A stretch of 37,461 nucleotides of DNA, taken from the NCBI GenBank assembly GCA_009779405.1, contig WREI01000016.1, positions 1 through 37,461 of the forward strand. Direction: 5' to 3'. The stretch comes from Clostridiales bacterium. GTDB lineage: Bacteria > Bacillota > Clostridia > Christensenellales > CAG-138. The position numbers were made by a program, and so were the translations under genes. Of the stretch, positions 8,004 to 32,434 are shown one piece after another (the stretch's first letter is position 1; the number at the start of each line of letters is the position of its first letter). Below the pieces are notes generated by a model. That model searched no databases. It saw only the letters and a program-made list of their open reading frames with translations, and was not told the DNA's origin.

Positions 8004-8040
8004 AATCCCCACATCCATATGGATGGGGGATTCTTTGTTT
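8004..8040. terminator. Terminator between convergent importer operon and RHH gene
   Basis: AATCCCC (8004-8010), then CATCCATATGGATG, then GGGGATT (8026-8032): an almost perfect palindrome with one unpaired A, followed by TCTTTGTTT. It lies between two genes that end towards each other and can serve both strands. Confidence 0.8.
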
Positions 8041-8233
8041 ACTCAATAATAATCTTGTCAACACTGTTCTCAAAAATCATATTGATCAATTCATTGCGCG
8101 AACGTTCCGCTTCGCAGGCGATGGCGTCGATCTTCTCCAGCAGTTCCACCCGTATGCGGATGGAAATCACCCGCGTGCCGTCGTCGCCTTTCAGTTTTGA
8201 CTTCTTTGGAATTCGCATCGTATTGTTGTCCAT
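8039..8233 (-). CDS. Ribbon-helix-helix (CopG/Arc type) DNA-binding protein
   Basis: A 64-residue protein. A basic lead (MRIPKKSKLKG) is followed by the RHH pattern: beta strand TRVISIRIR, then helix VELLEKIDAIACEAE, turn RSRN and helix ELINMIFENSV. RHH proteins bind DNA as dimers and often repress their neighbours. The ATG at 8233 is chosen because GGAGGTG (8246-8240) lies 6 nt upstream; an ATG 36 bp earlier has no such site. It is divergent from the ANL enzyme gene across 127 bp that carry face-to-face promoters and palindromes. A repressor role for that gene is inferred. Confidence 0.85.
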   Translation of the reverse strand: MDNNTMRIPKKSKLKGDDGTRVISIRIRVELLEKIDAIACEAERSRNELINMIFENSVDKIIIE

Positions 8234-8262
8234 AAATACACCTCCGCTTTGGAAATAGTATC

Positions 8263-8292
8263 TTGACAATGGATTGTATTATATCCTACAAT
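8263..8292 (+). promoter_or_regulatory. Sigma-A promoter of the ANL enzyme gene, overlapping the RHH promoter
   Basis: TTGACA at 8263-8268, an 18-bp spacer, and TACAAT at 8287-8292. The inverted pair ATTGTA/TACAAT (8273-8278, 8287-8292) includes the -10. On the minus strand a perfect TATAAT (8283-8278) with a weak -35 TTATAA (8306-8301) can serve the RHH gene. A protein bound here would block both promoters. Confidence 0.7.
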
Positions 8293-8360: not shown

Positions 8361-10097
8361 ATGCAAGGAAAGCCATCGCAGGAAAAACTGTATTTGAAGT
8401 ACTATCCGAAGGAAGCGTTAAACGCAGTTCTGCCTAAAACCAAGATCGATGGATATTTCGAGGAAGTGAACGGCGAATACCCCGAAAGCACAGGATTGAT
8501 TTTCGCTGTTACGGGACAGAAAATCTCTATACGTCAAATACAGGAAGCATATCACGCGACCGCGAAAGCCTTGACGGGCATGGGTCTGCAACGGGGGGAC
8601 AATGTTGCTGTAAGCCTGTTTAACGTGCCTGAAATCGTCTACATTGTTTTGGCTTGCAGCAAGCTTGGTTTGTCGATCAATATGATCAATCCATTAGAAA
8701 AGCCGAAGGAGATTATAGAGCGAATCCATTCGACGAGCGCAAAACTGCTGTTCGTGCAAGATAAGATAGCGCCGTTATTCCGAAAAATATATAAGCATGC
8801 AGGCGTAAAACGCATGATCGTCGTGCCGATAACAGCAAGGTCTAAGTGTGTCGGCAACAGTACGGCATATCGAGCCGTAATCTCATGGAATGCCTTCATT
8901 GAAAAGGGGCGCACTGCGCCAACGGTACCCGATGCGCCCTACGATGAAAAAGCAGCTCTGATTTATACGCACTCAAGCGGCAGCACGGGACCCGGCAAAC
9001 CGATTGTATTGGGACACGATACCTTCGTGCAATTTGCGCATATGCACAATGGGGTAGGCTTTGAGATATCGCGAAGCGACAAGTGGCTGGCGGCTTTCCC
9101 GGCATTATTCGCAACCGGAGCAAGTTCATCTGTATTCACCCCGCTCTTGCTCGGTTTTCAAACCATTCTGGAACCAAGGTATGACTGCAAGGCCTTTTCG
9201 AGAAATTTAATCCGATACAGACCTAAGGTAGCGATTGCAACGAAACACTTTTGGAAATACATCCTGGATGATCCGCGCTTGGACGGCATGAATATGTCAT
9301 TTCTCAGGTACGCCGTATGCGGCGGCGAAAAGGTAAGAAGACACGAGATAAGACGCTTCGACAGGTTTTTGGTAGCGCATAACAATCGATTCGGCATGGG
9401 CAACGGATATGGCCAAAGCGAATTGGGCGGCAGTATATGCTGTTCCTGGTCTGTCAATGCACAGAATGGCGGAAACAATACCATAGGGATTCCCTATACA
9501 CACAATGAAATCATAATCAGGGATCTATCGACCGGAGAAGAAGCGGATTACAATCAGGTGGGTGCGGTCACCGCAAAAGCGGCAACGGAAATGATAGGGT
9601 ATCACAATATGCCGACGGAAACAGCAGATTATTTTAGGAACGGCGTCGCGAATCTCGGCGACCTGGGGCATGTGAACGAAAGGGGAGAGTATTTTATTGA
9701 CGGGAGAATTTCAGATTTCATACAAATTGCAGACAATATAAAGCTCAGACCATACGAAATGGAAGATGCAATAGAAGAAGCCATAGAGTGCGATCCCATT
9801 CTGGACGATGCAATCAAAGATTACTGCGTCTACGGCATTCCAAAGGGAGTTTATGCGCTTCCCGTTATTCAAATATGTATATCGAAAAAGTACAGGAAGC
9901 AGGCAAGGGCCATCATCGAAAAAATAAGCGGCGCATTGGCCAACAGGATGCCACCTGAGAAGCAAGCGCTTGCGTACAAAATCAGAACGAAAGGCTTTCC
10001 GTCTACCTTCGCAGGCAAAATAGATATCGCGGCGCTCAAACGCGAAACGAAGGGGTTTGTAAAATTCGCTGTCGATAGCAGCATGGATGGCCGTTAG
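8361..10097 (+). CDS. AMP-dependent synthetase/ligase (ANL superfamily), substrate unknown
   Basis: A 578-residue adenylate-forming enzyme; such enzymes activate a carboxylate with ATP and usually pass it to CoA or a carrier thiol. Core motifs are present: P-loop-like SSGSTGPGKPI, YGQSELGG (ATP-binding YGxTE region), LGDLGHVNERGEYFIDGR with the hinge region, IKLRPYEMEDAI, and the C-terminal catalytic lysine in STFAGKID. The enzyme is therefore probably active. The ATG at 8361 is preferred since GGAG (8351-8354) lies before it; an upstream in-frame ATG at 8307 would leave almost no leader. GC is clearly lower than in the importer operon or dcw cluster, suggesting transfer. No carrier protein or other pathway gene is next to it. 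Its end overlaps the stop of the convergent ATPase gene. Confidence 0.85.
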   Translation: MQGKPSQEKLYLKYYPKEALNAVLPKTKIDGYFEEVNGEYPESTGLIFAVTGQKISIRQIQEAYHATAKALTGMGLQRGDNVAVSLFNVPEIVYIVLACSKLGLSINMINPLEKPKEIIERIHSTSAKLLFVQDKIAPLFRKIYKHAGVKRMIVVPITARSKCVGNSTAYRAVISWNAFIEKGRTAPTVPDAPYDEKAALIYTHSSGSTGPGKPIVLGHDTFVQFAHMHNGVGFEISRSDKWLAAFPALFATGASSSVFTPLLLGFQTILEPRYDCKAFSRNLIRYRPKVAIATKHFWKYILDDPRLDGMNMSFLRYAVCGGEKVRRHEIRRFDRFLVAHNNRFGMGNGYGQSELGGSICCSWSVNAQNGGNNTIGIPYTHNEIIIRDLSTGEEADYNQVGAVTAKAATEMIGYHNMPTETADYFRNGVANLGDLGHVNERGEYFIDGRISDFIQIADNIKLRPYEMEDAIEEAIECDPILDDAIKDYCVYGIPKGVYALPVIQICISKKYRKQARAIIEKISGALANRMPPEKQALAYKIRTKGFPSTFAGKIDIAALKRETKGFVKFAVDSSMDGR

Positions 10098-11362
10098 TTT
10101 TTCAAACACCCAAGCGGCACGACCCAAACGCCGTTTTTCATTTTGAATGCGTATTCGGTACCCGTAAGAACCATCAAAAAGGACGGCTCATTCATTTTTT
10201 CCGTGTCTACGATCCGACGGAACTTGAGAAGATTCTCGGCGGCATCCTCAATTTCTCCCGCCCCCATTTTTACCTCGGCTGCACCCCAGCGGCCATCGGC
10301 AAGCTGAATAATGGCATCGATCTCCAAGCCGCTTTTATCACGGTAATGATAAACGCTTCCGTCTATACTCTCCGCATAAATTCTCAAATCCCTGATGCAG
10401 AGGGATTCGAAAAGGATTCCGAAGGTGTTGAAATCCGCAAGCAGACGTTTGGGTGTTGCTCTAAGTGAAGCGGTCGCGATGGACGGATCCGAAAAATGCC
10501 GTTTTGCTGTCGTCCTTATCGCGGTTTTGGAACGGAGTTTTGCGCTCCACGCCGGCAAATCCTCAATCACAAATATCTTTTTCAGCGCAGCGATATATTG
10601 GTCAACCGTAGCCTGTGATAACGCTTCGTCATTGGCGGTAAGGTCGTTCAGAATGGTGGAGATTCTCGCTTCGTTTGATATATTGCGGGATATAGAGCGC
10701 AGAAGCGCTTTGACCCTATCGGGATTCTTTTCAACGTTATCCGCTTTGGAAATGTCCTCGTTAGCTACGGCTTCTACATAGTCGGCGGCAACAGTCAATG
10801 CAATTTTTTCATCCGTTTCCCTGGCTACGATCGGCCAGCCACCGCGGTTTATGACAAATGCCAACTTTTCAATGCTTAGATTTGACTTGCCCTCCATATC
10901 GTCGTTCCCGTCAAACAAAGTCTCTAAGGAAATCTCCCCGGTTGAATCTCCGGTTTCATACAAAGACATTGTACGCATCCTCATGCGGGCAATGCGGCCC
11001 GTCCCCGTGTGCATATCATTTGTTCGTGTGGGAATGACCGAGCCGGTCAAAATAAACTGCCCCTTTTCGCGGCGCTTATCAACGGCGAACCTGACCGCAT
11101 TCCAAAGCTCGGGAGCAACTTGCCATTCATCCAAAAGTCGCGGCGTCGCACCCTCGAGTAACAGGGAAGGCTTGGTTTGCGCTGTAAGCTTATTCGCCTT
11201 TGCACTGTCGGGATCCTGCATATACAAAACACTGCCCGCTATTTCTTCGGCGGAACTCGTTTTTCCGCACCATTTGGGACCTTCTATTAAGACGGCACCC
11301 ATCGCGCGCAGCAGAAGCTCTAATTTCGCATCCGAGATACGTTTCAAATAGTTTACGTTCAT
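10094..11362 (-). CDS. AAA+ ATPase with DUF4143 C-terminal domain
   Basis: A 422-residue protein of the COG1373 type. The AAA domain has Walker A GPKWCGKTSSAEE near residue 30, the segment LLDEWQVAPELWNAVRFAVD, and the sensor strand GQFILTGS. A middle part (SQATVDQYIAALKKIFVIEDLPAW) has the look of a winged helix. The C-terminal DUF4143 part carries YHYRDKSGLEIDAIIQLADGRWGAAEVKMG, a restriction-fold-like D...E-V-K arrangement. The function of the family is not established. The ATG at 11362 is chosen over a GTG at 11371 because it follows GGGTGGTG closely. Its promoter carries four iterons. The stop overlaps the stop of the ANL gene (tail-to-tail). Confidence 0.85.
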   Translation of the reverse strand: MNVNYLKRISDAKLELLLRAMGAVLIEGPKWCGKTSSAEEIAGSVLYMQDPDSAKANKLTAQTKPSLLLEGATPRLLDEWQVAPELWNAVRFAVDKRREKGQFILTGSVIPTRTNDMHTGTGRIARMRMRTMSLYETGDSTGEISLETLFDGNDDMEGKSNLSIEKLAFVINRGGWPIVARETDEKIALTVAADYVEAVANEDISKADNVEKNPDRVKALLRSISRNISNEARISTILNDLTANDEALSQATVDQYIAALKKIFVIEDLPAWSAKLRSKTAIRTTAKRHFSDPSIATASLRATPKRLLADFNTFGILFESLCIRDLRIYAESIDGSVYHYRDKSGLEIDAIIQLADGRWGAAEVKMGAGEIEDAAENLLKFRRIVDTEKMNEPSFLMVLTGTEYAFKMKNGVWVVPLGCLKN

Positions 11363-11379
11363 TTTCACCACCCTACTTT

Positions 11380-11408
11380 AGTATGCTTAAAACTATGAAC
11401 TTTGTCAA
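11380..11408 (-). promoter_or_regulatory. Sigma-A promoter of the DUF4143 ATPase gene
   Basis: On the minus strand TTGACA (11408-11403), a 17-bp spacer and CATACT (11385-11380), 17 bp before the start codon. One copy of the 23-bp iteron lies in the spacer, so any iteron-binding protein would contact the promoter directly. Confidence 0.75.
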
Positions 11409-11473
11409 GAGTTTACTATGAACTTTGGCGTCTGTTCACTATGAACTTTGGCGCCCATTTGCTATGAACTTTG
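11393..11473. repeat. Four 23-bp-period iterons over the ATPase promoter
   Basis: The 12-mer CTATGAACTTTG occurs without mismatch at 11393-11404, 11416-11427, 11439-11450 and 11462-11473. Each start is exactly 23 bp after the last, about two helical turns, so all copies face the same side of the DNA. The 11-bp gaps are only partly similar. Copy 1 lies in the promoter spacer and copies 2-4 extend upstream to 2 bp from the hemZ stop. This looks like a multi-site operator. Confidence 0.9.
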
Positions 11474-11474
11474 G

Positions 11475-12890
11475 CTACAATAAAAACAACGCCCGCTTCC
11501 GTCTGTCCAGCTCCGCCAACTTCCCGCAATACGTCCCCACATCCTTGGGATTGGGTATCCTCTCCACCCGTACATCGCGCCCCGGAAACACGCGTTTACT
11601 CATCGCGCCCGCGCCGTGGGCCAGCACCGAGGAGGTCTCCTCCATCATATCCGCGTTATACAGGCAGGCGTGGCCGGGGAGGGCATAGCCCACGTTTTCT
11701 AACGAGCCGCGCATATATTTCTGGCGGTACATATAGTAGGGGAGAAGGCCGAGCCCGCGCGCGGCGGCGTCCGCCGCCTGCAGCATTTGCGTTGCCGTGT
11801 TTGCGTCGGGCAGGGGCGTAATTTCTAGTTGCTCTTTGAGACGGCTGCTGCGCTTAACGGCCAGCGTATGCACGGTCAGGCTCTCGGGATGCAAGGCGCG
11901 GATGGCGGCGAGGGTATATTCCATATCGGCAATCGTCTCCCCCGGCAGGCCCGCGATAATGTCCATATTGATATGCGTGAAGCCCGCGGCGCGCGCGTCG
12001 GACATCGCGCGGCGCGTATCCTCGGCGCTATGCGCGCGGCCTATACGGCGCAGGGTCGCGTCCACCATGGTCTGCGGGTTGACCGAGATGCGCGTAACGC
12101 CCGTATCGCACAAGACGCGCAGTTTCTCGGGCGTGATCGTATCCGGCCTGCCCGCTTCAACGGTGAATTCTCTTCCCCCTATATCATAGGCCTCGCGGAC
12201 AGCCGAAAGCAAAACCCGCAACTGTTCCGCCGTAAACACGGTGGGCGTGCCGCCGCCGATATAGAGTGCCCGCAGAATATAGCCGCCCTCCTTTACGATG
12301 GCCGCGCCCGCCGCAATATCCTGCAAAAGAAAGCGCAGATATGCGTTCAATTCCCCCGCCCGACGGCTCACCTCCGCGCCAAAACTGCAATATAGACAGC
12401 GCGAACGGCAATACGGTATACCGATATAAACATCCAAACTGTTCGGTGCCAGGCTATTCCAAAGCGGCCCCTGCACCGCGCAAATCTCCCGCGCCAGCGC
12501 TGTTTTCGCCGCCGACACATCAAAATCCTCCCGAAACATGCGCAAGGCTTCGGCCTCCCCATAATGCTCCCCCAACTGCCGCAACAAGGCCGTAGGCCGT
12601 ATCCCCGTCAAACTCCCCCAGGGCAATTCAGTGGGGCATACAGCTTGCAGTGCCGCATACAGGCAGCGCTTCAAAGCCCGCTTCTCCTGCCGCTTTTGTT
12701 CCCATGGATCATTTTCAATTTTCGGTATGGGTAAGGTAACAGAGGGATAACCATCAATCCACGCAACGGCAACATTCTCCGAAAGAACACATTGCGCGTT
12801 GCGCGTTGCACATTGAACATTGTCAAAAAGCCGCGCCACTTCCGCCAAATCATTGGTATACCGCGGCGCATTGGTTTCTATTTGAATCAT
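11475..12890 (-). CDS. hemZ: Radical SAM coproporphyrinogen oxidase-like protein HemZ
   Basis: A 471-residue protein of the HemN/HemZ group; HemZ members are annotated as oxygen-independent coproporphyrinogen dehydrogenases in haem synthesis, though related HemW proteins are haem chaperones, so the exact role is open. The N-terminal 150 residues are the HemZ-type lead domain (PWGSLTGIRPTALL). The iron-sulfur ligands are C161, C165 and C168 in IPYCRSRCLYCSFGAEV, followed by YIGGGTPTVF and the HINMDIIAGLPGET segment typical of the family. It starts inside the stop of the MBL gene (ATGA, 4-bp overlap). Residues about 24-35 (NVQCATRNAQCV) are encoded by a heptamer repeat, described separately. 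Confidence 0.88.
   Translation of the reverse strand: MIQIETNAPRYTNDLAEVARLFDNVQCATRNAQCVLSENVAVAWIDGYPSVTLPIPKIENDPWEQKRQEKRALKRCLYAALQAVCPTELPWGSLTGIRPTALLRQLGEHYGEAEALRMFREDFDVSAAKTALAREICAVQGPLWNSLAPNSLDVYIGIPYCRSRCLYCSFGAEVSRRAGELNAYLRFLLQDIAAGAAIVKEGGYILRALYIGGGTPTVFTAEQLRVLLSAVREAYDIGGREFTVEAGRPDTITPEKLRVLCDTGVTRISVNPQTMVDATLRRIGRAHSAEDTRRAMSDARAAGFTHINMDIIAGLPGETIADMEYTLAAIRALHPESLTVHTLAVKRSSRLKEQLEITPLPDANTATQMLQAADAAARGLGLLPYYMYRQKYMRGSLENVGYALPGHACLYNADMMEETSSVLAHGAGAMSKRVFPGRDVRVERIPNPKDVGTYCGKLAELDRRKRALFLL
12786..12824. repeat. Heptamer repeat lying in frame inside hemZ
   Basis: On the coding (minus) strand this reads as successive 7-mers TTCAATG, TGCAACG, CGCAACG, CGCAATG. The same style of heptamers forms the arms of the element at 33914-34029. 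Here only one arm is seen; no clear complementary arm was found within about 100 bp. Confidence 0.7.
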
Positions 12891-19815: not shown

Positions 19816-19887
19816 GAGTTAATAGTTAAGAGTGAATAGTGAATAGTTATGGTAGATCCGCAACTCTTAACTATTCACTCTTAACTC
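19816..19887. repeat. Heptamer inverted-repeat element, short core
   Basis: The left arm is built of GAGTTAA, TAGTTAA, GAGTGAA and TAGTGAA units (19816-19850). The right arm (19861-19887) carries the complements of the same units. The junction GTTATGGTAGA is shared with the elements at 21722 and 25534, but the core is only about 10 bp. It lies before walJ. Confidence 0.8.
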
Positions 19888-21721: not shown

Positions 21722-21847
21722 GAGTGTGAAGTGTGGGGTGTGAAGTGTGGAGTTGCGGTGAAAATACCTGCGGCATTTTTAATTAAATTGAAATTTCGCA
21801 GGAATTTCTACCATAACTCCACACTTCACACTCCACACCCCACACTT
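21722..21847. repeat. Heptamer inverted-repeat element in the rsmH leader
   Basis: Arms of GTGTGAA, GTGTGGG and GTGTGGA units (left 21722-21758, right complement 21811-21847). The arms pair almost fully across a core of about 50 bp. The core holds a CCTGCG/CGCAGG inner stem and the junction sequence GGAATTTCTACC, also seen at 25534-25654. Confidence 0.85.
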
Positions 21848-21877: not shown

Positions 21878-22834
21878 ATGGAACCGAACACAAGCTTCCA
21901 CCACACCCCCGTCCTCCTCTCCGAAGTAATTTCTCTCATGGAGCCACAACGCGGGGGGATATTCGTGGACGGAACTCTCGGCGGCGGCGGGCATGCGGAA
22001 GCGCTGCTTGCGCGTATGCCACAGGACAGCCGCCTGATCGGCATCGACCGCGACCCTGCCGCGCTGGCGGCGGCGCGCGCGCGGCTGGCGCCCTTTGGCG
22101 AACGCTTCACAGCCATCCGCGGCAACTTTTTTGATATGCGCCGCCTGTTGGCGCAGCAGGGCGTTTCGGGTGTGGACGGCATACTCCTCGACCTCGGCGT
22201 CTCCTCCCCCCAGATAGACGAAGCCGAACGCGGCTTTTCCTATCACGCGGACGCCCCCCTGGATATGCGCATGGATACGGACGCGCCGCTGACGGCGGCT
22301 ATCGCGGTGAACACCCTGCCCGAAGCGGAGCTGGCGCGCATCTTCTTCGCCTATGGCGAGGAGCGCTATGCGCGGCGCATCGCGAAGCGCATCTGCGAAC
22401 GGCGAACCCAAACGCCCTTCGCCCGCACAACGGAGCTGGCGCAGTATATCGCGGCCTGCATCCCGTACAAATTGCAGGAGAAGGGCCAGCACCCGGCGCG
22501 CCGCTGCTTCCAGGCCCTGCGCGTCTATGTCAACGGGGAATTGGACGGCCTGCCAAGCGCGCTGGACGATGCCTGCGCTCTCCTGCGTCCGGGCGGACGT
22601 CTCGCGGTTATCAGCTTTCACTCATTGGAAGACCGCATCGCAAAACTGCGCTTCCGCAACTGGGAAAACCCCTGCGACTGCGACCCCCGCGCGCCGATGT
22701 GCACCTGCGGAAAAACCCCGCAAGGCCGCATTTTGACCAAAAAACCGATTACGGCAGGCGGGGAGGAGCTCGCGGCGAATTCGAGGGCAAGTTGCGCGAA
22801 GCTGAGAGCGTTTGCGCGTAAGTGTGAAGTGTGA
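21878..22834 (+). CDS. rsmH: 16S rRNA m4C1402 methyltransferase RsmH (MraW)
   Basis: A 318-residue SAM-dependent methyltransferase. It starts HHTPVLLSEVISLMEPQRGGIFVDGTLGGGGHAEALL, with the GxGGH SAM loop, then LDLGVSSPQIDEAERGFSYHADAPLDMRMD and FHSLEDR. It methylates C1402 in the 30S decoding centre and is usually the first or second gene of dcw clusters. The ATG at 21878 follows AGGAGGG. mraZ is not upstream; the AGCS transporter is. The last residues (KCEV) and the stop are encoded by the start of the next repeat. Confidence 0.96.
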   Translation: MEPNTSFHHTPVLLSEVISLMEPQRGGIFVDGTLGGGGHAEALLARMPQDSRLIGIDRDPAALAAARARLAPFGERFTAIRGNFFDMRRLLAQQGVSGVDGILLDLGVSSPQIDEAERGFSYHADAPLDMRMDTDAPLTAAIAVNTLPEAELARIFFAYGEERYARRIAKRICERRTQTPFARTTELAQYIAACIPYKLQEKGQHPARRCFQALRVYVNGELDGLPSALDDACALLRPGGRLAVISFHSLEDRIAKLRFRNWENPCDCDPRAPMCTCGKTPQGRILTKKPITAGGEELAANSRASCAKLRAFARKCEV

Positions 22835-22912
22835 AGTGTGGAGTTGCGGAATGAAGCTTAGGGAAAGATGAAACCATTCATACCTTAACTCCACACTCCA
22901 CCCCCCACACTC
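22821..22912. repeat. Heptamer inverted-repeat element, rsmH-ftsL
   Basis: The left arm (22821-22849) is GTGTGAA, GTGTGAA, GTGTGGA and GTTGCGG; the right arm (22883-22912) holds complements of GTGTGGA-type units. The rsmH stop (22832-22834) lies inside the left arm. The core is about 33 bp. Confidence 0.8.
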
Positions 22913-25533: not shown

Positions 25534-25654
25534 GAGTTAAGAGTTAAGAGTGAAGAGTTAAGAGTTGTGGGAGGAATCGAAAGCGATTCCAGAATTAAAT
25601 TTGGAAATTCCGCAGGAATTTCTACCGCAACTCTTCACTCTTCACTCTTAACTC
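25534..25654. repeat. Heptamer inverted-repeat element, PBP-murE
   Basis: Arms of GAGTTAA and GAGTGAA units (left 25534-25570, right complement 25624-25654). The core contains AATTAAAT and GCAGGAATTTCTACC, both shared with the 21722 element although the heptamers differ. Confidence 0.85.
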
Positions 25655-28135: not shown

Positions 28136-28140
28136 GAGAA

Positions 28141-28262
28141 GTAATAAGTAATAATGCAGAATGCAGAGAGGTTCTTGCGATGTAAATTGAGCTAAACATG
28201 GCATATGCAAGCCAACCATCCCTGCCCACAGTTTCTCTGCATTCTGCATTATTACCTATTAC
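28141..28262. repeat. Heptamer inverted-repeat element before murD, copy 1
   Basis: The left arm (28141-28170) is GTAATAA, GTAATAA, TGCAGAA, TGCAGAG; the right arm (28234-28262) is the complement. The core of about 63 bp resembles that of the copy at 29630, including CCATCCCTGCCCA. The two copies flank murD. Confidence 0.88.
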
Positions 28263-28283
28263 CTAACTGAACCGGAGGTTCCC

Positions 28284-29633
28284 ATGCAAAAACGCGCCCT
28301 CATCGTCGGCATGGCCAAGAGCGGCATCGCCGCCGCCAAACTCCTGCATGCCGCGGGCTATGCCGTCACCATCAACGACATCAAGCCGGAGATACCCGGT
28401 CTCTTCGACGCGCTGGCGGGCGTGCCTTGCAGCGTGCGCTTGGGCTTTGACCCGATGGAGCTGCTGGCGGGGACGGATTTGCTCGTCCCCAGCCCCGTGA
28501 TCCCGATGACCCGCCCCTTTATCGTCGAGGCGAGACGGCGGGGGATCGAGGTGATCTCCGAGATCGAGCTGGGCTATCGCTACAGCAAGGCCGATTTCGT
28601 CTGCGTGACGGGTACCAACGGCAAGACGACCTGCACCGCACTGACGGGCGAGCTGTTCAAGGCGAGCGGGCGCAAGACCTATGTGCTCGGCAATATCGGC
28701 GTCGCGATCTCCGAATATGCACTCGACACCAAGCCGGGCGAGGTCGTCGTCGCGGAGACCGCAGCATTGCAGCTCTGCGGCAATATACATTTCCGCGCGA
28801 AAGCCGCGGGCATCTGCAATATCACGCCCGACCACTTGGATCACTTCGGCAATATGGAGAGTTATATCGCCGCCAAGGCCAAGATATTGGAGAACCAGAA
28901 TTGGGACGACGTGGCGGTGCTGAATTATGACGACCCTATAGTCCGAGGTCTCGCGGGCAACACCCCCGCAAGAATTCTATGGTTCTCGCGCAAAGAGGAA
29001 CCAAAAAACGGTATGTTCCTGCGTGGTGAAGATGTCATATTCCGCCTGCACAGCAGGGAACTCGTCCTGATGCCCGCCAAAGAGATACGCATCCCCGGCG
29101 GCCACAACCTCGAAAACGCCATGCTCTGCGCGCTGCTGGCGCTCTCGCAGGGCATAGACCCCGCCATGATACGCCGCGTCCTGCAAACTTTTCCGGGCGT
29201 TGAGCATCGGATCGAGTATGTTCGCGCAGTGGGCGGCGTAGATTTTATCAACGACAGCAAGGGTACGAATCCCGCCAGCACCCTGCGCGCCATGGAGGCG
29301 ATCAATAAACCCCTCGTCATGATCTTGGGCGGCTACGACAAGCACGCGGACTTTTCCGAGCTCTTCACCCTCTTCCCCGGCAAAGTCAAGGCCTGCGTGC
29401 TCCTCGGCCAAACGGCGGGAAAAATCGAATCAGCGGCCAACGCCGCCGGATTCGGCGACATATGTCACCGAACTTATGGCTTCGAAGAAGCCATAAGCAG
29501 GGCCAAAGCCCTCGCGCGTCCCGGCGACTGCGTACTCCTCTCCCCGGCCTGCGCCAGTTGGGGCATGTTCGCGAATTATGAGGAGAGAGGGAAGTTGTTT
29601 AAGGAAATTGTGGGGGGAATGAAGGAGAAGTAA
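28284..29633 (+). CDS. murD: UDP-MurNAc-L-alanine:D-glutamate ligase MurD
   Basis: A 449-residue Mur ligase. It begins with a Rossmann-like UDP-binding part (ALIVGMAKSGIAAAKLL), then has the ATP loop VTGTNGKTTCT, NITPDHLDHFG, and NDSKGTNPAST. The C-terminal CVLLSPACASWGMFANYEERG is the MurD hallmark, with glycine where many MurDs have aspartate. It adds D-glutamate to UDP-MurNAc-L-Ala. GGAGG precedes the ATG. The gene is flanked by two copies of a heptamer element; the second supplies its TAA. Confidence 0.95.
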   Translation: MQKRALIVGMAKSGIAAAKLLHAAGYAVTINDIKPEIPGLFDALAGVPCSVRLGFDPMELLAGTDLLVPSPVIPMTRPFIVEARRRGIEVISEIELGYRYSKADFVCVTGTNGKTTCTALTGELFKASGRKTYVLGNIGVAISEYALDTKPGEVVVAETAALQLCGNIHFRAKAAGICNITPDHLDHFGNMESYIAAKAKILENQNWDDVAVLNYDDPIVRGLAGNTPARILWFSRKEEPKNGMFLRGEDVIFRLHSRELVLMPAKEIRIPGGHNLENAMLCALLALSQGIDPAMIRRVLQTFPGVEHRIEYVRAVGGVDFINDSKGTNPASTLRAMEAINKPLVMILGGYDKHADFSELFTLFPGKVKACVLLGQTAGKIESAANAAGFGDICHRTYGFEEAISRAKALARPGDCVLLSPACASWGMFANYEERGKLFKEIVGGMKEK

Positions 29634-29752
29634 TAAGTAATAATGCAGAATGCAGAGAGGGCCTTTGCGATGCAAGTTGGAGTATATATTGCGTATGCAA
29701 ACAAACCATCCCTGCCCATAGTCTCTCTGCATTCTGCATTATTACCTATTAC
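29630..29752. repeat. Heptamer inverted-repeat element after murD, copy 2
   Basis: The same arms as the 28141 element, including GTAATAA and TGCAGAA units, in the same orientation, with a partly diverged core. The murD stop TAA (29631-29633) is the first triplet after the leading G of the left arm. Confidence 0.88.
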
Positions 29753-31076: not shown

Positions 31077-32330
31077 ATGGCGGAGTTGACGGTGACGGGC
31101 GGCAAGCGCCTGCGCGGAGAGATTGCGGTGCAGGGGGCGAAGAACGCCGCGCTGCCCATATTGGCGGCGACCGTGCTGGTACCCCATCCCGTCCGCCTGC
31201 ACGGTTGTCCGCGCCTGTTGGACGTGGAGAATATGATCGATATCCTGCGCGCGCTCGGGGCAGTGGCGCAGTGGCAGGGGGATGCGCTGCTGGTGGATAC
31301 GGGCGCCGCGGCGGGCTCCGCGCTGCCCGAGGATTTGGGGCGGCGCCTGCGCTCCTCGTTCTTTTTGCTCGGCCCCCTGCTGGCCCGCTTTGGCGAGGCC
31401 TCGGTCAGCCAGCCGGGGGGCTGCGATATAGGCAGCCGCCCCATAGACCTGCATCTGGCGGGCCTGAAGCGCCTGGGCGCGGAAATTTCGGAGGACGGCG
31501 GGCATATACGCTGCCGCGGCAAGCTCCGGGGTACCATCGTGCACATGGACTATCCCAGCGTGGGCGCAACGGAGAATATTATGATGGCCGCCTGTGCGGC
31601 GAACGGCGTCACCGTTATCGAGGGCGCGGCGCGGGAACCGGAGATAGAGGATTTACAGAACTTCCTGAACGCCGCGGGATACTCTGTCTCGGGCGCGGGT
31701 CTCTCCTCCATCGTCGTGCGCGGCGGTTCTGCGGTGCAGGCCTGCGAATACACGGTGATGGCCGACCGCATCGCGGCGGGGACCTATCTCGCCGCCGCCG
31801 CCGCCACGGGCGGGGATATCGTCTGCCGCAACGCGCCGCCGCGCCACCTGGGCGTGGTGTTGGAAAAACTGCGTGAAGCGGGTTGTGAGGTGCGGGAGGA
31901 GACGGGCCTGATCGCGCTGACCGCCCCCGCGCGTCTGCGCCAGATTGCGCGCATAGACACCCTGCCCCACCCGGGCTTTCCGACGGATATGCAGTCGCAG
32001 TTTCTGGCCCTCTGCGCGACCGCGCGGGGCGTCAGCCTGATTGCCGAGAACGTGTTCGAGAACCGTCTGCGGACGGCAGCCGAGCTGAACAGCATGGGCG
32101 CGGATATCACGGTGCGGGGCAATATCGCCGTCGTGCGCGGCGTTCCGCGCCTGCGCGGCAATGTCGTCACCGCCCACGACCTGCGCGGCGGCGCGGCCCT
32201 CATCATCGCCGCCCTCGCCGCAGAAGGAAGCACCACCCTGCGCCACGCCGAGCGCATAGACAGAGGGTATGCGGATATGGAGGGCGTGCTAAATGGATTG
32301 GGCGCGGAGATTACACGAAATGACAGTTAA
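31077..32330 (+). CDS. murA: UDP-GlcNAc 1-carboxyvinyltransferase MurA
   Basis: A 417-residue enzyme of the first committed wall step, moving enolpyruvate from PEP to UDP-GlcNAc. It has QGAKNAALPILAAT (K22, N23), the active loop SVSQPGGCDIGSRPIDLHL with the PEP-binding cysteine at about 116 (the fosfomycin target), PTDMQSQF and the C-terminal RGGAALIIAALAAEG. The ATG at 31077 has GGGGAG 7 nt upstream; the frame continues upstream but is leader only. The ribosome site is inside a strong hairpin. The stop lies in the next heptamer element. Some clostridia have a second murA elsewhere; this one is in the dcw cluster. Confidence 0.96.
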   Translation: MAELTVTGGKRLRGEIAVQGAKNAALPILAATVLVPHPVRLHGCPRLLDVENMIDILRALGAVAQWQGDALLVDTGAAAGSALPEDLGRRLRSSFFLLGPLLARFGEASVSQPGGCDIGSRPIDLHLAGLKRLGAEISEDGGHIRCRGKLRGTIVHMDYPSVGATENIMMAACAANGVTVIEGAAREPEIEDLQNFLNAAGYSVSGAGLSSIVVRGGSAVQACEYTVMADRIAAGTYLAAAAATGGDIVCRNAPPRHLGVVLEKLREAGCEVREETGLIALTAPARLRQIARIDTLPHPGFPTDMQSQFLALCATARGVSLIAENVFENRLRTAAELNSMGADITVRGNIAVVRGVPRLRGNVVTAHDLRGGAALIIAALAAEGSTTLRHAERIDRGYADMEGVLNGLGAEITRNDS

Positions 32331-32434
32331 GAGTGAAGAGTGAAGAGTTGTGGTAAAAACGCTCCGCGTTTTAGTTAAATAAAGCAATGCCGAAGGCATT
32401 GCAACCATAACTATTCGCTCTTCACTATTCACTC
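32325..32434. repeat. Heptamer inverted-repeat element, murA-ftsQ
   Basis: Arms of GAGTGAA, GAGTTGT and TAGTGAA type units (left 32325-32353, right complement 32404-32434). The core has two small hairpins, AAAACGC/GCGTTTT and AATGCC/GGCATT. The murA stop (32328-32330) is in the left arm. Confidence 0.82.

Follow-up and report, generated by a model that had tools for sequence, protein, structure and literature searches.

Iterons over the promoter of the ATPase gene

Which protein reads a set of evenly phased repeats lying over the promoter of a DUF4143 ATPase gene, and could it be the ATPase itself? The repeats were noticed in the window, i.e. the whole stretch of 37,461 nucleotides analysed here, as four identical 12-mers at exact 23-bp steps. 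All four were confirmed within 11393-11473: the 12-mer (CTATGAACTTTG on the forward strand, CAAAGTTCATAG on the reverse strand) occurs as exact copies at 11393-11404, 11416-11427, 11439-11450 and 11462-11473, with steps of exactly 23 bp. On the reverse strand the common unit is longer than the 12-mer and reads GCCAAAGTTCATAG, the promoter-proximal copy being GACAAAGTTCATAG (beginning GACAAAG). The array and promoter comprise the following features:

11462..11475, reverse strand: iteron 1, distal, GCCAAAGTTCATAG, exact copy
11439..11452, reverse strand: iteron 2, GCCAAAGTTCATAG, exact copy
11416..11429, reverse strand: iteron 3, GCCAAAGTTCATAG, exact copy
11393..11406, reverse strand: iteron 4, GACAAAGTTCATAG, overlapping the end of the -35 element and the spacer, in the register also seen in about 35 other arrays
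11380..11408, reverse strand: sigma-70-type promoter TTGACA-17-CATACT, with TTGACA at 11408-11403 and CATACT at 11385-11380

The first base of iteron 1 is the G of the TAG stop codon of the upstream radical-SAM (HemZ/HemW-like) gene. At the other end of the array, the promoter-proximal 12-mer covers the last part of the -35 hexamer, whose sequence is the consensus, plus ten spacer bases, in keeping with the claim that the repeats extend over a clear promoter with one copy in its spacer. The 12-mer has six matches in the window at up to two mismatches, compared with 1.6 on average and never more than 5 in 100 shuffles, and the lag-23 self-similarity score reaches 36.8 at the array and at most 10 in 40 dinucleotide shuffles. 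Elsewhere in the 2.5-Mb genome, neither an iteron pair (up to three mismatches) nor a single 15-mer iteron (up to two mismatches) was found, so that the motif is restricted to its own gene. No regulator gene adjoins the ATPase gene, again as noted; the nearest candidate is a small ribbon-helix-helix ORF (8039-8269) located beyond an AMP-ligase gene.

Other repeats in the window

Two further types of repeat were observed in the window. Hairpin-like elements are present at 19817-19887, 21723-21846, 22820-22912, 25534-25654, 28139-28265, 29628-29740 and 32325-32433; their arms consist of 7-bp tandem units, e.g. GAGTTAAGAGTTAAGAGTGAAG ... CTTCACTCTTAACTC, and they possibly form a family of REP-like intergenic repeats. 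Within the HemZ/HemW-like coding sequence, at 12792-12821, lies a tandem repeat of heptamer-like units (TTGCGCG TTGCGCG TTGCACA TTGAACA TTG).

The 23-bp period in homologue promoters

The upstream regions of 150 homologues (36-82% identity) were analysed for the best self-similarity lag within the 150 nt preceding the start codon, start codons and promoters being assigned by rule. The homologues come from Firmicutes, Bacteroidota, Spirochaetes, Actinobacteria, archaea and viral contigs, mostly from metagenome bins whose taxon labels are uncertain. The strongest period was 23 or 46 in 140 of the 150 regions and in 1-2% of controls. A lack of phased repeats before close homologues would have refuted the idea; the opposite was found, 23-bp arrays being nearly universal in the subfamily. 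In a first set, drawn from the family and class of the window (37-71% identity), the best lag was 23 or 46 in 56/63 regions, and lag 23 was best in 1.8% of 2520 shuffles and in 1.4% of control windows taken at these loci (17 of 1221). Scanning 84,980 species genomes together with viral contigs yielded a second set of 87 testable loci (Firmicutes, Treponema, Bacteroidota, Fibrobacter, Actinomyces, Bifidobacterium, archaea and viral contigs), of which 84 gave a best lag of 23 or 46. The same periods were found in all five named plasmid copies, with identity down to 29%, including those of Bacteroides ovatus and Collinsella aerofaciens ATCC 25986. About 7% of the homologue upstream regions, e.g. 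L019, L078, L082, L133 and L164, show no clear 23-bp array.

The period is constant across homologues, while the sequence of the repeat varies from gene to gene, and several copies of the subfamily within one genome carry different iterons (L034, L061, L065 and L073 in genome G125). Relatives whose iterons differ from those of the window include Bacteroides ovatus WP_032845912.1 and Collinsella aerofaciens WP_040360137.1. Ordinary tandem duplication, or chance repetition in an A/T-rich intergenic region, would make neighbouring copies alike, as slippage does; one exact period in nearly all 150 regions despite differing sequences, found in only 1-2% of shuffles and same-locus windows, refutes this explanation, to which practically no credence is given. 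In one homologue, L108 from Arachidicoccus rhizosphaerae, the units alternate between two specificity boxes (ATCGGGAAG and ATCACGAAG) and the best lag is 46.

Homologues are patchily distributed, being present in 41 of the 391 genomes of the class. The ATPase gene is absent after the hemZ-like radical-SAM gene in seven other genomes of the window's family, which indicates that the unit is an accessory insertion.

Domain organisation of the ATPase

The protein encoded downstream of the array has the following organisation:

10094..11362, reverse strand: DUF4143 ATPase, 422 aa, PADLOC candidate PDC-S01, ATG at 11362-11360
10955..11296, reverse strand: AAA_14 NTPase domain, residues 23-136, with Walker A (G28-x4-GK34) and Walker B (D78-E79) motifs, both invariant
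10493..10723, reverse strand: winged-helix region, residues 214-290, from the AlphaFold model; the loop of the wing at about 278-281 is unordered
10577..10615, reverse strand: predicted recognition helix, residues 250-262, from the model; residues 251 and 255 co-vary with the specificity box of the iteron
10334-10336, reverse strand: codon of residue 343, which co-varies with iteron bases 10-11
10103..10453, reverse strand: PD-(D/E)XK nuclease-like domain, residues 304-420, with D349 and E363-x-K365 invariant

Pfam recovered DUF4143 (114.9 bits) and AAA_14 (44.8 bits) in this protein, both above their cut-offs, and no other Pfam domain, neither Rep nor a LuxR-type HTH. An AlphaFold model of 69 homologues (pLDDT 93.3) places a winged helix in the middle region, where a winged-helix-like segment had been proposed; residues 250-262 form the third helix of this fold and residues 266-290 its wing. 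In the C-terminal domain, D349, E363 and K365 are invariant across the 69 sequences, the model has strands at 347-354 and 359-365, which puts the D...E-x-K catalytic motif of PD-(D/E)XK nucleases on neighbouring strands, and residue 343 lies in a hairpin turn. The C-terminal domain folded alone gave a pLDDT of 32 and was discarded, and the fold search of the model barely covered this domain. A search of the PDB by sequence found no relative.

The PADLOC model PDLC04790 (PDC-S01) matches the protein with an E value of 2.9e-65 over residues 4-420, a likeness that spans the whole length. PDC-S01, an ATPase fused to PD-(D/E)XK, is described as the fourth commonest defence system in prokaryotes, with tens of thousands of genes, and validation of candidate defence genes of this kind is mostly pending (PMC12988326). 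Phage defence by PDC-S01 is thus a predicted annotation, that of a candidate. The papers searched on this family, and on AAA proteins in connection with repeats or iterons, gave no function, DNA target, operator or regulation for it.

Co-variation of ATPase residues with iteron bases

Folding 134 arrays into 23 columns revealed a common box, GCCAA (columns 9-13), and a variable box (columns 14-22) which is 85-97% constant inside one array and differs between arrays; the remaining columns form an A/T-rich linker. The similarity of these boxes was then related to that of 11-residue protein segments in 132 protein/array pairs, with overall identity removed. Residues 246-260 were the best segment for the variable box, with a partial r of 0.239 (largest of 300 permutation maxima, 0.179), and residues 271-287 the best for the common box (0.29 vs 0.193), and similarity of the linker tracked no protein segment clearly across these pairs. 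Among 9706 residue-base pairs, ranks 1 and 2 went to residue 251 (columns 20 and 19) and ranks 3 and 4 to residue 343 (columns 10 and 11). K251 occurs with G in 24/25 cases and K343 with C in 63/63, D/E251 pair with C/G steps and P/V/Q251 with A/T; these pairings are chemically sensible, and the sequences being related, such plain counts are not independent.

Among 65 sister pairs, the variable box had changed in all 31 with a change at residue 251 and in 21 of the 34 without (p 7e-5), residue 251 ranking fourth, not first, of 333 columns in this test. Across independent branches, N/S/T/G251 went with C20 (9.0:0.0, p 0.004) and K/R343 with C10 (8.3:0.0, p 0.008), and all tests pointed in the expected direction (9.0:0.0, 8.3:0.0, 7.3:0.4 and 9.8:1.3; p 0.004 to 0.02), each resting on 5 to 21 independent pairs; linker controls were not significant.

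The tracking of the variable box by the predicted recognition helix supports the original prediction that the ATPase would be the reader of its iterons. A host regulator binding the repeats, with the ATPase uninvolved, would be conceivable inasmuch as binding of the array by the ATPase is so far predicted from sequence. Such a third party is nevertheless very improbable: it would have to serve subfamily copies that carry different iterons in one genome and a motif confined to a single gene in 2.5 Mb, it would have to account for a period that survives transfer across phyla, and it offers no reason for iteron bases to co-vary with residues of the ATPase.

Promoter register and proposed mechanism

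Arrays usually contain three to five units. Position relative to the promoter was examined in those for which a promoter candidate was available (112 arrays): the final 14-bp unit begins at +2 to +5 of the -35 element in 36 of these, including the window, and stands one 23-bp step further upstream, abutting the -35 element, in 38. This locking of the array to the -35 element argues for transcription as a selected role.

It is very probable, from the comparisons above, that the ATPase uses both domains, the winged helix and the nuclease-fold one, to bind its own iterons and autoregulates, with distinct specificities keeping separate copies apart. The 23-bp repeats would act as the gene's operator and its product would bind them, one protomer reading one 14-bp unit (GCCAA plus the variable box). 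The recognition helix of the winged helix (about 250-262) would read the variable box, and the wing, together with the hairpin of the PD-(D/E)XK-like domain bearing residue 343, would read the common GCCAA box. Neighbouring protomers aligned along three to five units, in fixed register to the -35 element, would set transcription of their own gene. Horizontal transfer of copies and the presence of several per cell would favour a response to self only, and hence divergence of specificity. We infer physical binding, cooperativity between protomers and a role for ATP from these patterns, as we do the role of the protein and the sign of its control, for which repression is favoured; it would be most likely where a unit covers the -35 element and spacer, as in the window.

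The ATPase might instead activate its own promoter. MalT is a STAND regulator that activates from arrays of sites; the model of the ATPase resembles STAND NTPases, and in the 38 arrays noted above the last unit occupies a frequent activator position just upstream of the -35 element. About as many arrays, however, have a unit over the -35 element and spacer, the -35 element of the window is consensus, and the sites and C-terminal HTH of MalT are unrelated to these iterons and to a protein in which Pfam finds only AAA_14 and DUF4143. Activation is accordingly considered rather unlikely.

If autoregulation is correct, the iterons would give the DUF4143/PDC-S01 family a DNA target and a code that can be read from residue to base, and the natural pairs of protein and operator, hundreds in number, make binding, specificity and control directly testable.

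Promoter repeats in other DUF4143 subfamilies

The genome of the window carries 11 DUF4143 genes, most with some repeat or palindrome at the promoter. A survey of 60 DUF4143 genes outside the window's subfamily found direct repeats of 31-33 bp in 15/23 members of one subfamily, inverted repeats in 15/25 of a second, three of that group having 41-bp direct repeats, and inverted repeats in 5/11 of a third, against a chance expectation of about 2%. Since the geometry of the operator follows the subfamily, self-operators seem to be usual throughout the DUF4143 family, with one layout per subfamily. The layouts observed (loci L004-L014 and L182-L241) were direct repeats of 31-33 bp, long inverted repeats placed about the -35 element, and inverted repeats flanking the -10 element (TTTCGGC...GCCGAAA).

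Orphan iteron pairs in viral contigs

The pair GCCAAACTCGGAAG at 23 bp, which is the iteron of the ATPases L036, L061 and L102, was found in cellular genomes only at the ATPase promoter. It was also found in 12 viral contigs, in all of which it lacks an adjoining ATPase; as a measure of chance, a reversed 16-base control gave 38 matches, which scales to about 4e-5 for 26 bases. A further iteron type accounted for 7 more stretches. No ATPase was found anywhere in 13 viral records, of which 12 contain an orphan pair and one is a relative with the site empty, a weak result as these are mostly fragments. Neither the window's own iteron nor the second common type, CCAATCGTCGGAA, had matches in viral contigs, and a search of INPHARED with the 37-nt phage pair returned only 17-nt chance matches. 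The generic pattern GCCAAAn6AA, twice, matched at least 120 viral stretches (reversed control, 38); at least five of the six variable bases were repeated in 23 of the 123 matches listed, no better than the control (6/38), so that only specific-sequence matches were counted.

Where a small terminase-like gene begins, the pair is present in 24 of 79 relatives and absent from 55. Between the nearest filled and empty versions of this gene the difference is 33 nt, inserted in frame, and the gene tree shows at least 11 changes of state. At other viral sites the pairs stand after tRNA genes. The loci L242-L253, L254-L260 and L274-L353 cover the orphan pairs, in some cases three units, and the site that is polymorphic for them.

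These viral pairs are possible decoys, self-tags or borrowed operators. The iterons could then chiefly provide the ATPase/nuclease with a loading or self-marking site that anchors its off state; the viral copies would exploit this, and transcriptional control would be secondary. Pairs without an ATPase, repeatedly gained and lost at one phage site, and the invariant nuclease motif (D349, E363-x-K365) would suit such an anchor, but the position of the arrays is locked to the -35 element and any link of the phage pairs to resistance is conjectural; as the main role, it is judged rather unlikely. The broadest proposal, in which a widespread self-regulating STAND ATPase/nuclease (PDC-S01) would read gene-specific iterons and the phage pairs, gained and lost, would be decoys or self-tags that bind and blunt it, is tentative and somewhat doubtful as a whole. 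What connects it to phage is the occurrence of orphan operator copies in viral contigs, with closely related sequences differing at one locus in whether they have them; if true, phages would be countering a defence with 33-37 bp of DNA and without any protein.

Comparison with known systems

The model of the ATPase resembles STAND NTPases from Pyrococcus (2qen) and Sulfolobus (2fna), with Z scores of 14.8 and 13.6 over about 260 residues, reflecting a shared arrangement of NTPase, helical and winged-helix parts; NLRs and CED-4 match the model with Z of about 11. These matches leave out the C-terminal PD-(D/E)XK-like domain, and 2qen, 2fna, NLRs and CED-4 are not known to have iteron operators. 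Archaeal Cdc6/Orc1 (2qby), a Foldseek match, likewise combines AAA+ with a winged helix that reads DNA repeats, but the TM-score is low (0.25) and the window shows no sign of a replication origin. Plasmid iterons are phased direct repeats bound by the Rep product of the adjacent gene, which thereby represses itself; the window shares with them the phased direct repeats and adjacent gene, whereas the ATPase lacks a Rep domain and is encoded by a chromosomal or plasmid accessory gene, not at an origin. The likeness in regulation is to RptR, a defence-island autorepressor which binds three direct repeats over its own promoter (PMC12255303). Unlike the ATPase, RptR is a separate homodimeric regulator beside the defence genes, and its repeats are imperfect 9-bp units with a 6-bp palindrome as the minimal site (PMC12255303). 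In the system proposed here, the ATPase/nuclease product would itself be the regulator, acting on phased 23-bp units whose sequences are specific to each gene.
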